From positions 62,001 through 126,000 of the forward strand of contig NZ_JAKGSI010000003.1 of the NCBI RefSeq assembly GCF_021568315.1: 64,000 nt of DNA, given 5' to 3'. The notes below the pieces were generated by a model. It was given only the letters and a program-made list of their open reading frames with translations. It was not told where the DNA came from and did no database searches. This document shows, piece by piece, positions 2,990 to 27,723 of this stretch (the stretch's first letter is position 1; each line of letters starts with the position of its first letter). The position numbers and the translations under genes are program-made. This DNA comes from Corynebacterium uropygiale. Lineage in GTDB: Bacteria > Actinomycetota > Actinomycetes > Mycobacteriales > Mycobacteriaceae.

Positions 2990-3384
2990 GCACCTCCTGT
3001 GGAGGACGGGGGTGGTGGTAGCCGTGGGTGCATTCGAGATCTGACCGGCAAGGGTATCGGCGCGGCACAATCAGGGAGGGTGCGATGCTGTTGCCTGAGG
3101 ATTGGTCGGATCAGAAGATCGTGGACGCGGTTCGGGACACGATCGTGAACCCAGATGAATACAGACCAGCAGGAGAAAACATACCGGTACAATGAGTGCG
3201 GAAAAAGGTGGATGGAGTCGCCATAGAAGCTAAGTGGGTAGTCATCAATGGGCAGGCGAAGTTCAATTTGGTGTATCCGGTGTATGGTCCCGGGGTGGTT
3301 CGGGTAGGCTCTGCTGGTAGGCTAGAGATCGTAGCACCTCCGGAGAAAAAGGACCGGAGGTTTGTCCCAGTGAACAGAGGATAG
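2990..3384 (+). pseudogene. Degenerate EndoU-type nuclease toxin domain
   Basis: The frame from 3085 reads LLPEDWSDQKIVDAVRDTI, then NPDEYRPAG, a TGA at 3193-3195, and in the same frame VDGVAIEAKWVVINGQAKF, followed by LVYPVYGPGVVRVG up to 3384. This order (FP-x-W-S, KI-AI helix, VDGV, NG, YP-GPGVVR) resembles the C-terminal half of bacterial EndoU RNase toxins of contact-dependent or polymorphic toxin systems. A glycine-rich EDGGGGSRG segment lies just upstream in another frame, where the catalytic GG-H motif would be, but the histidine is absent. One frameshift and one stop therefore inactivate it. The N-terminal secretion part is missing. The assignment rests on motif order only. Confidence 0.5.
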
Positions 3385-20084: not shown

Positions 20085-21266
<1,182 letters not shown>

Positions 21267-25011: not shown

Positions 25012-25194
25012 CTAATCCTGCGGGTCAATCTGCTGATTGCGCGTCTCTTTCCGCAGGCTGCTGTACGCGATGATGAAGCAAATGGCCGCCGGCACAAGGA
25101 AAACCACTGTGGCCAACTCATTGTCCGCCACCCAGCACCCCGCCGACGCCAGCACCAACAGGCCGGCGAGGATGAGGAAAGTGCGGGTGCGCAT
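25012..25194 (-). CDS. Small two-helix membrane protein
   Basis: This 60-residue protein has two hydrophobic segments (FLILAGLLVLASAGCWV and ATVVFLVPAAICFIIAY) and a charged tail. A GAAAGG lies about 7 bases before the ATG, which supports translation. I recognise no family. It is convergent with the ABC-F gene and divergent from the small monooxygenase gene. Confidence 0.65.
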   Translation of the reverse strand: MRTRTFLILAGLLVLASAGCWVADNELATVVFLVPAAICFIIAYSSLRKETRNQQIDPQD

Positions 25195-25676: not shown

Positions 25677-25733
25677 GCGCTACGCTCACCTGTTTTCGGC
25701 GGCGTCCCGCGGCGTCGCCTCCTCGATTCCCTT

Positions 25734-25776
25734 GATCCCCTGGCCGCGTCGGGCCCGCCCCGGCGGCCAGGGGATC
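25734..25776 (+). terminator. Perfect 14-bp inverted repeat after ABM gene
   Basis: GATCCCCTGGCCGC at 25734-25747 is exactly complementary to 25763-25776 with a 15-nt loop. No T-run follows, but the position 58 bp after the ABM stop fits a terminator-like hairpin. Confidence 0.55.
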
Positions 25777-25802
25777 GACGCGTCCAGGTAGATTGGTAGA
25801 CC

Positions 25803-26468
25803 GTGATTCACGCAGCCTCCTTTGCTCTCGTCGACTCCATCAATGTCCTTCTCATTGGAGTTGTCGTCGCCTTAGGAGTGATGATCCCGCCCCGCGGCCC
25901 CTACCGAAAGACGGCTGCGTTACTCATTTCTGGGGACTGGCTGGGGGTGTTCAGCCTCGCCCTGCTTTCCCTGCTTGTGTTCCAAAGCCTCGGGGCCTGG
26001 GTGGTGGCTTTCGCGGAATCCTGGACGTTTGGGCTGGTCATTGCGCTGGCTGGCCTGCTCATCGCGGGGCTTACCGCGTGGGGTGGGACAAACGACGCGC
26101 TCATCGAGAAGATCCTCGTTCCTCTCCGCCGGCCCGGGCCGCTCACTGTGGCAACGGGGCTCGTCCTCGGTCTGGTGCAGTCGGTGACGTCGGCACCCTT
26201 CTTCCTTGGCCTCATTGAGTTGGCCGCGACGGGTCTCCCGCGCGGCGCCCAATACGCGTGGGTCATTCTCTACGCCAGCCTTGCCCTCAGCCTGCCCACT
26301 CTCAGCGCGGTGTGTGTGGGTGTGGTGCGCCGTCGGCCCCGCAGCCTCGTGGGTAAGGCCTTCGCCTGGATGAAGGAGCGCCCGCAGCAGATGACGCTTA
26401 GCGCCGGCTACGGGGTGGGAGTGTTGCTCATCCTCATGGGCGTGTGGAAGATGATCTGGCCCGGGTGA
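25803..26468 (+). CDS. Six-helix membrane protein (GAP/LysE-like)
   Basis: This 221-residue hydrophobic protein has about six membrane segments. The opening (FALVDSINVLLIGVVVALG) and the GLVLGLVQSVTSAPFF segment are similar in layout to GAP or LysE-type exporters of actinobacteria. The substrate is unknown. The start is GTG at 25803; a TAGATT hexamer lies eight bases upstream and no ribosome-binding site is seen. It ends before the terminator at 26502 that also serves the convergent porin-like gene. Confidence 0.8.
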   Translation: MIHAASFALVDSINVLLIGVVVALGVMIPPRGPYRKTAALLISGDWLGVFSLALLSLLVFQSLGAWVVAFAESWTFGLVIALAGLLIAGLTAWGGTNDALIEKILVPLRRPGPLTVATGLVLGLVQSVTSAPFFLGLIELAATGLPRGAQYAWVILYASLALSLPTLSAVCVGVVRRRPRSLVGKAFAWMKERPQQMTLSAGYGVGVLLILMGVWKMIWPG

Positions 26469-26501
26469 TACCCCCTCAGCAACGCACTCACGGCAGAGCT
26501 C

Positions 26502-26538
26502 AGCCCCTGGGGCATCCGAGGATGCGAACCCAGGGGCT
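26502..26538 (-). terminator. Bidirectional hairpin between membrane gene and porin-like gene
   Basis: AGCCCCTGGG (26502-26511) pairs with CCCAGGGGCT (26529-26538), and an inner GCATC/GATGC stem extends it. It lies 17 bp downstream of the small porin-like gene and 34 bp downstream of the convergent membrane gene. Confidence 0.75.
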
Positions 26539-26554
26539 TGAGTGCTGTCTTCTC

Positions 26555-26674
26555 TTAGAAGGAGAGGTCAGCGATGGAACCCGCGGCGCTCAGGGAGGTC
26601 TCGAAGGTGTTCCAGATCAGCTCGATGGCGTTGTCCCACCAGCCGAAGGTGATAGAGAGGGCGAGGTCAGCCAT
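26555..26674 (-). CDS. Porin-like 39-residue acidic peptide (PorA/PorH type)
   Basis: The ATG (complement of 26672-26674) follows AAGGAG with six bases spacing. The 39-residue product begins MADLALSITFGWWDNAIEL and ends GSIADLSF. It has three Asp, two Glu and no Lys or Arg, giving a net charge near -5. It alternates aromatic/aliphatic and polar residues as an amphipathic helix, and has no signal peptide. These are the features of corynebacterial mycomembrane porins: PorA of 45 residues and PorH of 57 in C. glutamicum, and about 40 residues in C. jeikeium. Those porins also map next to a ppk2 gene, as here. Serines are available for O-mycoloylation. A strong terminator follows. The porin function is inferred from size, charge and context, not alignment. 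Confidence 0.75.
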   Translation of the reverse strand: MADLALSITFGWWDNAIELIWNTFETSLSAAGSIADLSF

Positions 26675-26808
26675 GATGGCTCCTTCTTTCCATAACAGGG
26701 GAATGATACAGTGGTTGGTGCAACAATGATATCTTCAATTGAATACAAAAGTCCAGGGTAGAAGGGGTAGCGCGGGGGTGGAGGGCTTTCGTCGCTAGAC
26801 TTTGAAGC

Positions 26809-27723
26809 ATGGCTAAGAAGAACTCCGAGCACGACGCCCACGCCACGACGCCGCCCAAACTCTCCAAGAAGGCCTATGAGAAGGAGCTGCGCCGGCTGCA
26901 GGCGGAGCTCGTCGATATGCAGCAGTGGGTCGTGGAGACGGGCGCGCGCCTCGTCATCATCATGGAGGGGCGCGACGCCGCGGGGAAGGGCTCGGCGATC
27001 AAGCGCATCACCCAGTACCTCAACCCCCGCACGTGCCGCATTGAGGCTCTCCCGGCCCCGAACTCCCGCGAGCAGGGCCAGTGGTACTTCCAGCGCTACG
27101 TGGAGCGGCTGCCCACCGCCGGTGAGATCGTCATCTTCGACCGCTCCTGGTACAACCGCGCCGGGGTGGAACGGGTGATGGGCTTCTGCACCTCCCAGGA
27201 GTACCGCCGCTTCCTTCACCAGGCGCCGATCTTCGAGCGCCTCCTCGTGGAAGACGGCATCATGCTGCGCAAGTACTGGTTCTCCGTCTCCGATGAGGAG
27301 CAGATCAACCGCTTCCGTTCCCGCCTCAATGATCCGCTGCGCCGGTGGAAGCTCTCGCCCATGGACCTGCAGTCCATCACCCGGTGGGAGGACTACTCGC
27401 GGGCCAAGGATGAGATGTTCATTCACACCGACATCCCCTCGGCGCCCTGGTACACCGTCGAGAGCGAAGACAAGAAGCGCTCCCGCATCAACGTCATCAA
27501 TCATCTGCTCTCGACGATCCCCTACGAGAAGATCGATCGCCCGCTGCCGGAAATCCCTGATCGCCCGGATAGCGTCGAGAACTATGAGCGCCCGCCGCGC
27601 GAGGAGTTCCGCTATGTTCCCGACGTCGCAGCCGCGCTGGAGAAAGACCGGCTGAAGGCAGAGAAGGCCGAGAAGAAGGCGAAGAAGGCAAAGAAGTCCG
27701 CGAAGAAGTCAAAGAAGTCCTAG
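26809..27723 (+). CDS. ppk2: Polyphosphate kinase 2
   Basis: This 304-residue cytosolic kinase of the PPK2 family transfers phosphate between polyphosphate and nucleotides. The P-loop is GRDAAGKGS near 54-62. The lid-proximal FDRSWYNRAGVERVMGFC near 109-127 and WKLSPMDLQSITRWEDYSRA near 182 are diagnostic. The C-terminal 40 residues are a lysine/alanine-rich tail. TAGACT at 26796-26801 lies exactly seven bases before the ATG, indicating a leaderless transcript. It is divergent from the porin-like gene. Whether it favours NDP or NMP substrates cannot be read here. Confidence 0.94.
   Translation: MAKKNSEHDAHATTPPKLSKKAYEKELRRLQAELVDMQQWVVETGARLVIIMEGRDAAGKGSAIKRITQYLNPRTCRIEALPAPNSREQGQWYFQRYVERLPTAGEIVIFDRSWYNRAGVERVMGFCTSQEYRRFLHQAPIFERLLVEDGIMLRKYWFSVSDEEQINRFRSRLNDPLRRWKLSPMDLQSITRWEDYSRAKDEMFIHTDIPSAPWYTVESEDKKRSRINVINHLLSTIPYEKIDRPLPEIPDRPDSVENYERPPREEFRYVPDVAAALEKDRLKAEKAEKKAKKAKKSAKKSKKS

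Follow-up and report, generated by a model that had tools for sequence, protein, structure and literature searches.

A conserved small gene divergent from ppk2A in Corynebacterium uropygiale and its possible relation to mycomembrane channel peptides

Does a 39-codon gene beside a ppk2 gene of Corynebacterium uropygiale encode a channel of the PorA/PorH type, and does it point to a wider link between porins and ppk2? The gene lies at 26555–26674 on the minus strand of the window, the whole 64,000-nucleotide stretch of DNA that was analysed, and consists of an ATG start, 39 codons in all, and a stop, just as the initial annotation had it. Its predicted product, MADLALSITFGWWDNAIELIWNTFETSLSAAGSIADLSF, has a net charge of −5 and three Trp residues and is free of Lys, Arg, and His, as well as of Cys and Pro; no signal sequence was seen at its N-terminus by eye. 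The gene stands alone between a convergent membrane-protein gene (25803–26468, plus strand), which is weakly Sap/SfLAP-like at a Pfam score below the cut-off, and the divergent ppk2A (26809–27723, plus strand; PPK2, TIGR03707). This ppk2 had been described as the copy near rpfB and not the groEL-linked one, correctly: an rpfB-type gene with Transglycosylase-like, DUF348, and G5 domains is found at 20139–21263, and the genome carries another ppk2, with 53% identity to ppk2A, beside a Cpn60 (groEL) gene on a different contig (C5). ksgA, ispE, and an ABC-F gene were also recognised by eye in the ppk2A/rpfB neighbourhood.

The ribosome-binding site, AAGGAG at 26680–26685, ends 5 nt before the ATG and deserves the word ideal that was first applied to it. 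Further upstream is a promoter-like pair, TGGACT-18-TATCAT (26726–26755, minus strand), identified by a consensus promoter scan of the intergenic strand (one pair found against 0.1 expected) and by comparison with the relative G200 described below. A hairpin follows the stop codon (26494–26547, minus strand), with a folding energy of −36.6 kcal/mol and a z score of −4.6, and none of 200 shuffles folded equally well. The strong terminator claimed earlier is borne out as a stem, but no T run lies behind it and it is absent from the output of the consensus terminator scan; perhaps it is a terminator common to the peptide gene and the convergent gene. The promoter-like site and the hairpin argue against a leader peptide role. 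Searches of Pfam, NCBIfam, and PHROGs with the peptide, its initial Met omitted in some of the family-model searches, gave no match, and a PDB search gave one, with an E-value of 0.99.

Evidence on the gene also comes from G200, another species of the genus and the first-ranked relative of the window genome (ppk2A 90%, ppk2B 97%, and the Sap-like protein 71%). In G200 the frame recurs at the equivalent position, divergent to ppk2A. The two frames differ at 29 of 117 nucleotides, with 5 differences at first, 1 at second, and 23 at third codon positions; none of 20,000 random placements matched this third-position bias. Only five residues change (I20L, F24L, T26S, I34L, and F39L), and again none of 20,000 random mutation sets gave as few. 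dN is 0.08, and dS was not computable, which we read as saturation. Identity is 88/117 in the frame, 63/120 upstream, and 29/82 after the stop. Just 2 of the 14 nt directly 5′ of the ATG align, because the spacer length differs: by eye, the AAGGAG of G200 is 7 nt before its ATG. Also by eye, G200 has a promoter-like pair, TGGAAC-18-TAGAAT, with the same spacing as in the window; in both genomes, the block ACCAACCACT follows the pair; and after the G200 stop there is a hairpin unrelated to that of the window, and then TTTCTTT. It seems that the whole transcription unit is kept while its non-coding sequence drifts. Judged by these substitutions, the small gene is real, purifying selection acts on it in both species, which are close relatives of the Corynebacterium type, and it is almost certainly translated. 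That it might instead be a chance ORF or an untranslated small RNA finds some ground in the background rate: ORFs passing a common filter (ATG, strict RBS, 25–80 aa, acidic, few K/R) occur at about 1–3 per 100 kb of ordinary sequence, and the window holds one other, at 3085–3195. Nevertheless, the frame-respecting divergence in G200 refutes a chance ORF in practice, and the region 25700–27000 had no match in Rfam, so that we give this reading next to no weight.

How far does the gene extend beyond this pair? When 242 genomes of the genus were searched with a two-sequence profile, the convincing matches were those in the window genome (E 4e-28) and G200 (E 7e-27); the next best had an E-value of 0.009, and 71 of the 242, both carriers included, had a match at E ≤ 1. 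Most of the weak matches among those listed fall in long frames and about a fifth in frames of less than 100 aa. The best of them, in G057, was rejected: its frame has 32 aa, contains basic residues, and by eye shows no RBS ahead of the ATG. A search of 151 genomes, with a query lacking the initial Met, gave weak matches at E ≤ 1 in 29, the window genome included. A set of 401 family genomes, sampled from a larger group, gave two genomes with E ≤ 0.01, namely the window genome and that of the same 0.009 match; G200 was not among the matches of this search. A tblastn search of plasmids found no relative of the peptide. A scan of named genomes for back-translated WWDNAIE, in which near records may be missing, gave four stretches, from Bacteroidota, Acidobacteria, and a cyanobacterium. 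Since the convincing matches are confined to the window genome and G200, the small gene is, by its detectable similarity, lineage-restricted among the genomes searched. The refuting condition set by the initial proposal, a frame not conserved in relatives, did not come true, but the frame beside ppk2 was found in one relative only.

This distribution bears on whether the peptide could be a small regulator in the inner membrane or cytosol, for example of PPK2 or of the convergent Sap-like membrane protein. The arrangement fits such a role, as in both carriers the peptide gene is divergent to ppk2A and convergent with the membrane-protein gene. However, PPK2 matches occur in 240 of the 242 genus genomes (at least 11 of which apparently have the ppk2B type only, with a best E near 1e-83) and Sap-like matches in 208, these being matches and not established orthologues, against 2 of 242 for the peptide. 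Neither protein, therefore, needs the peptide, and we regard a regulator as unlikely. The Sap-like gene was also considered as a specific partner and rejected, given its 208 matches and 28 other neighbourhoods (L201–L228) that lack such a peptide; the sole filter-passing ORF among those 28, in L220, is Cys-rich.

What, then, does the peptide look like? AlphaFold2, run on the single sequence, predicts one straight helix from residue 2 to residue 37, with a mean pLDDT of 82.6 and a pTM of 0.47; the last nine residues of the helix are less certain (mean pLDDT 65). On a 100-degree wheel, all five acids, D3, D14, E18, E25, and D36, lie inside a 60-degree arc, a clustering equalled by 280 of 100,000 random placements of five residues. 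S7, G11, N15, N22, S29, G32, and S33 are on or beside the acid stripe, and L4 is also on that face. The initial description of a very acidic, amphipathic peptide without a basic residue agrees well with these computations. The predicted helix would be about 54 Å long (36 × 1.5 Å), which is within the 50–80 Å quoted for the thickness of the mycomembrane and differs from the roughly 34 Å of the modelled PorA-PorH pore (PMC12632848).

The closest known systems, compared by description, are two leaderless, homo-oligomeric channels: PorACur of C. urealyticum (cur_1714), with 37 aa and slight cation selectivity, and PorACj of C. jeikeium (jk0268), with 40 aa and anion selectivity (PMC5944148, PMC3792995). 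The peptide resembles both in size, in the lack of a leader, and in its predicted amphipathic helix, and PorACj also in the signals around its gene, with AGGAG ahead of the start codon and a stem-loop behind the coding sequence (PMC5944148, PMC3792995). The difference is in location, their genes lying between groEL2 and ppk2 and the present one being divergent from the other ppk2. PorA of the C. glutamicum type (NF033925) is likewise a small, acidic, leaderless helix but differs in its LIGL-type C-terminus and its pairing with porH. PorH (NF033937, NF033938) is likewise a small, acidic, leaderless, amphipathic helix, and many PorH-type ORFs share with the peptide a serine near the C-terminus; the peptide, however, is shorter and is without the PorH N-terminus, MDLxxI...DFxTF. 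Finally, ProtX of C. glutamicum (Cgp_2875) is described as a mycomembrane protein that has no leader and is not part of the porA-porH operon (PMC12632848).

To set the peptide against porin-type sequences, control sets were drawn from small ORFs at 70 canonical groEL2-ppk2B loci; a ppk2B match is present in 236 genomes, of which these loci represent a part. The rules for these ORFs were an ATG, an RBS, a charge below +4, and a position within 1 kb; 19 of the 70 loci gave no candidate. Genomes G000 (the window genome), G032, and G083 and one non-porin ORF were left out, and the corrected sets contain 46 PorA-type ORFs from 45 genomes (G170 and G194 included) and 40 PorH-type ORFs from 40. In length, charge, K/R content, GRAVY, and helical moment, the peptide is within the minimum–maximum range of the PorA-type ORFs (44 ORFs, or 46 in the corrected set), and 7 of the 46 are also free of K and R. 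Its helical moment of 0.41 is just under the PorA-type lower quartile of 0.42, and its three Trp exceed the PorA-type maximum of two.

Sequence comparison does not go beyond this general likeness. The NCBIfam models for PorA and PorH (NF033925, NF033937, NF033938) had no match to the peptide at E ≤ 10, and as a control the PorA/PorH pair of a congener matched NF033925 and NF033938. With a PorA HMM of 46 sequences, 349 of 1000 shuffles of the peptide score equally well (351 with a 44-sequence HMM); with a PorH HMM of 40 sequences, 101 of 1000 do so (37 with a 42-sequence set that includes the two PorA-type ORFs of G170 and G194). Profile comparison with hhalign gave a marginal result for PorA (P 0.009, probability 4.5%, 9 of 300 column shuffles equally good) and nothing above chance for PorH, where 198 of 300 shuffles were equally good. 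In the profile alignment there is a faint C-terminal likeness of AAGSIADL to WAGAVADL of PorA, and we take this resemblance as a lead and not as proof. Against the PorA LS motif with its invariant Ser, the peptide has ALS at residues 5–7, and a LIGL-type C-terminus is absent. Nor is the gene where a porA would be, between groEL2 and ppk2B on the ppk2B strand; it is divergent from ppk2A near rpfB. In kind, therefore, the peptide is PorA-like, being small, leaderless (by eye), acidic, and a predicted amphipathic helix, but by its sequence it is not demonstrably a PorA or a PorH. Of the initial proposal of a PorA/PorH-type channel, the size, charge, and helix hold up, while family models, shuffle-level HMM scores, and the locus and orientation do not lend themselves to it, and a porin reading of the peptide is plausible but unproven.

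The proposal that the link between porins and ppk2 is wider was examined in the upstream regions of ppk2A of 80 relatives. A K/R-free acidic ORF with an RBS, on the peptide's strand and no more than 700 bp upstream of ppk2A, is found in one of the 80, G200; in four others (L046, L070, L093, and L109) the same strand carries, inside those 700 bp, frames that are weakly acidic and in every case contain basic residues. The common filter found 76 ORFs at the canonical groEL2-ppk2B loci, in 47 of the 70 places, and it follows that it misses porins. It found 9 ORFs in 272 kb upstream of ppk2A (the 80 regions, G200 included and the window not), 2 in 100 kb downstream of ppk2A (40 regions), and 1 in 88 kb at 29 arbitrary places. 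One of the nine is the G200 peptide and one is a 29-aa ORF of G149; by eye, the other seven are three related release-factor-end-like ORFs, a metal-binding-chaperone-like one, an ABC-F-end-like one, and a pair of weakly acidic frames. Of the two ORFs found downstream, one is PTS-domain-like and one antisense to the ppk2 tail, and by eye neither is porin-like. Because ORFs on both sides are at background apart from the G200 peptide, ppk2A as a general porin site is not supported, and the wider link finds no backing here. In the literature, as represented by titles or the opening lines of abstracts, no porin at a ppk2A locus was found, which is no proof of absence.

The 29-aa acidic ORF of G149 was considered as a second case and set aside, as it is found in 1 of the 242 genomes. 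It is at L085 224–313 (G149:C1:975583–975672, minus strand), about 2.7 kb upstream of ppk2A, with AAGGAG before it, hairpins after it, and, by eye, a zeta-toxin-type-like pair nearby. Upstream of ppk2A, 55 of the 80 relatives have a monooxygenase-type gene (ABM domain), which in 43 of them is on the same strand and no more than 300 bp away. In both carriers of the peptide, the Sap-like gene and the peptide gene sit between the monooxygenase-type gene and ppk2A. The window also has, at 25012–25194 (minus strand), a gene for a 60-aa membrane protein, flanked by the ABC-F gene and the monooxygenase-type gene. The protein is 54% identical in G200, and the matches listed at E < 1e-4 include none from the other 79 loci, although some of these may not reach that far.

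If the peptide were a channel, the porins already present in its carriers would matter. G200 has a classical porH-porA pair too. In the window genome, the groEL2-ppk2B locus (G000:C5:183071–183656; L113 5072–5657) has two small, acidic ORFs, of 84 and 78 aa, and no clear porH-porA pair. Against a PorH HMM built without it, the 78-aa ORF scores 7.2 bits, a value equalled by 3 of 1000 shuffles, and against the PorA HMM 171 of 1000 shuffles are equally good; by its profile score, the 78-aa ORF is PorH-like. A PorA profile search of the window genome, which is 99.9% complete, gave nothing at E ≤ 1. The same profile found the PorA of G200, whose own sequence is part of the profile, at E 1.5e-17, and those of the near relatives G048 (E 0.001) and G229 (E 0.02), both outside it. 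Matches to sequences within a profile are circular, and this applies to the PorA of G200 and, for the PorH profile, to ORFs of G000, G200, G048, and G229. The PorA of the window genome may have been lost or may have diverged beyond recognition; since the canonical-locus PorAs of G048 and G229 score so weakly, the apparent absence may be a matter of divergence. An odd pair similar to that of the window genome is present in G032.

Our preferred reading, held tentatively and with somewhat less than even confidence, is that the gene encodes a leaderless helix peptide of the mycomembrane, specific to this lineage, and that the peptide oligomerises to form a pore with a preference for cations. From the gene, its selection, and the computed helix and acid face, we infer export, lipidation, an oligomer, and conductance as follows. 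The product of the monocistronic gene would work like the single-subunit channels PorACur and PorACj. Like PorA, PorH, and ProtX, it would leave the cell with no signal peptide, and it might be mycoloylated on a serine, for which the conserved S7, S27, S29, S33, and S38 are candidates. Several copies could then pack with the acid/Ser/Asn/Gly stripe inward, forming a water-filled pore that prefers cations. Mycoloylation has been reported on flexible, Ser/Gly-rich sites (PMC11066868); residues S27–S33 have such a Ser/Gly-rich composition, yet are predicted to be helical. Besides the sequence comparisons, the locus and orientation, the Trp content, and the helical moment given above, two further points count against the pore. 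The mycoloylated Ser15 of C. glutamicum PorA is described in a loop between two helices (PMC11927696), whereas the peptide is predicted as one continuous helix, less certainly so in its last nine residues, and in G200 it would be an extra channel, because G200 already has its porH-porA pair. It is tempting to go further and propose that an additional channel of the mycomembrane arose independently, next to the second ppk2, in a single Corynebacterium lineage, as a homo-oligomer of the acid-striped, 36-residue helix, which would be long enough to cross the mycomembrane. In the window species, for which the PorA profile gave nothing, this channel peptide would either replace PorA as the partner of the PorH-like protein or be the main pore, but we consider this elaborated history distinctly improbable.

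The same leaderless (by eye), acidic peptide, with its predicted near full-length amphipathic helix and three Trp, could also be a surface or secreted amphipathic peptide that is no resident channel, either ProtX-like or an anionic, leaderless surfactant or antimicrobial by analogy with the staphylococcal beta-PSMs. ProtX serves as a precedent, being described as a leaderless mycomembrane protein other than PorA and PorH (PMC12632848). On the other hand, the family searches that returned no match for the peptide offer nothing for this reading, and no immunity or peptide-export gene was recognised among the immediate neighbours, where the Sap-like family name alone hints at envelope transport. 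We judge such a peptide possible but, on the whole, rather unlikely. Should the pore be the right reading, corynebacteria would acquire pores of the outer membrane in the form of tiny genes that are specific to a lineage and escape homology searches. The peptide, with no basic residue, one acid face, and a 36-residue helix, would then be a clean test case for two open questions, namely how a peptide without a leader gets across the plasma membrane and how the mycomembrane can be spanned by such a small helix.

Two arrangements at canonical groEL2-ppk2B loci were seen in passing. The PorA-type ORF of L194 (G141) is unusually far upstream. At L196, the locus of G197, a PorH-type ORF is flanked by two PorA-type ORFs in one interval, an arrangement that suggests por gene duplication.
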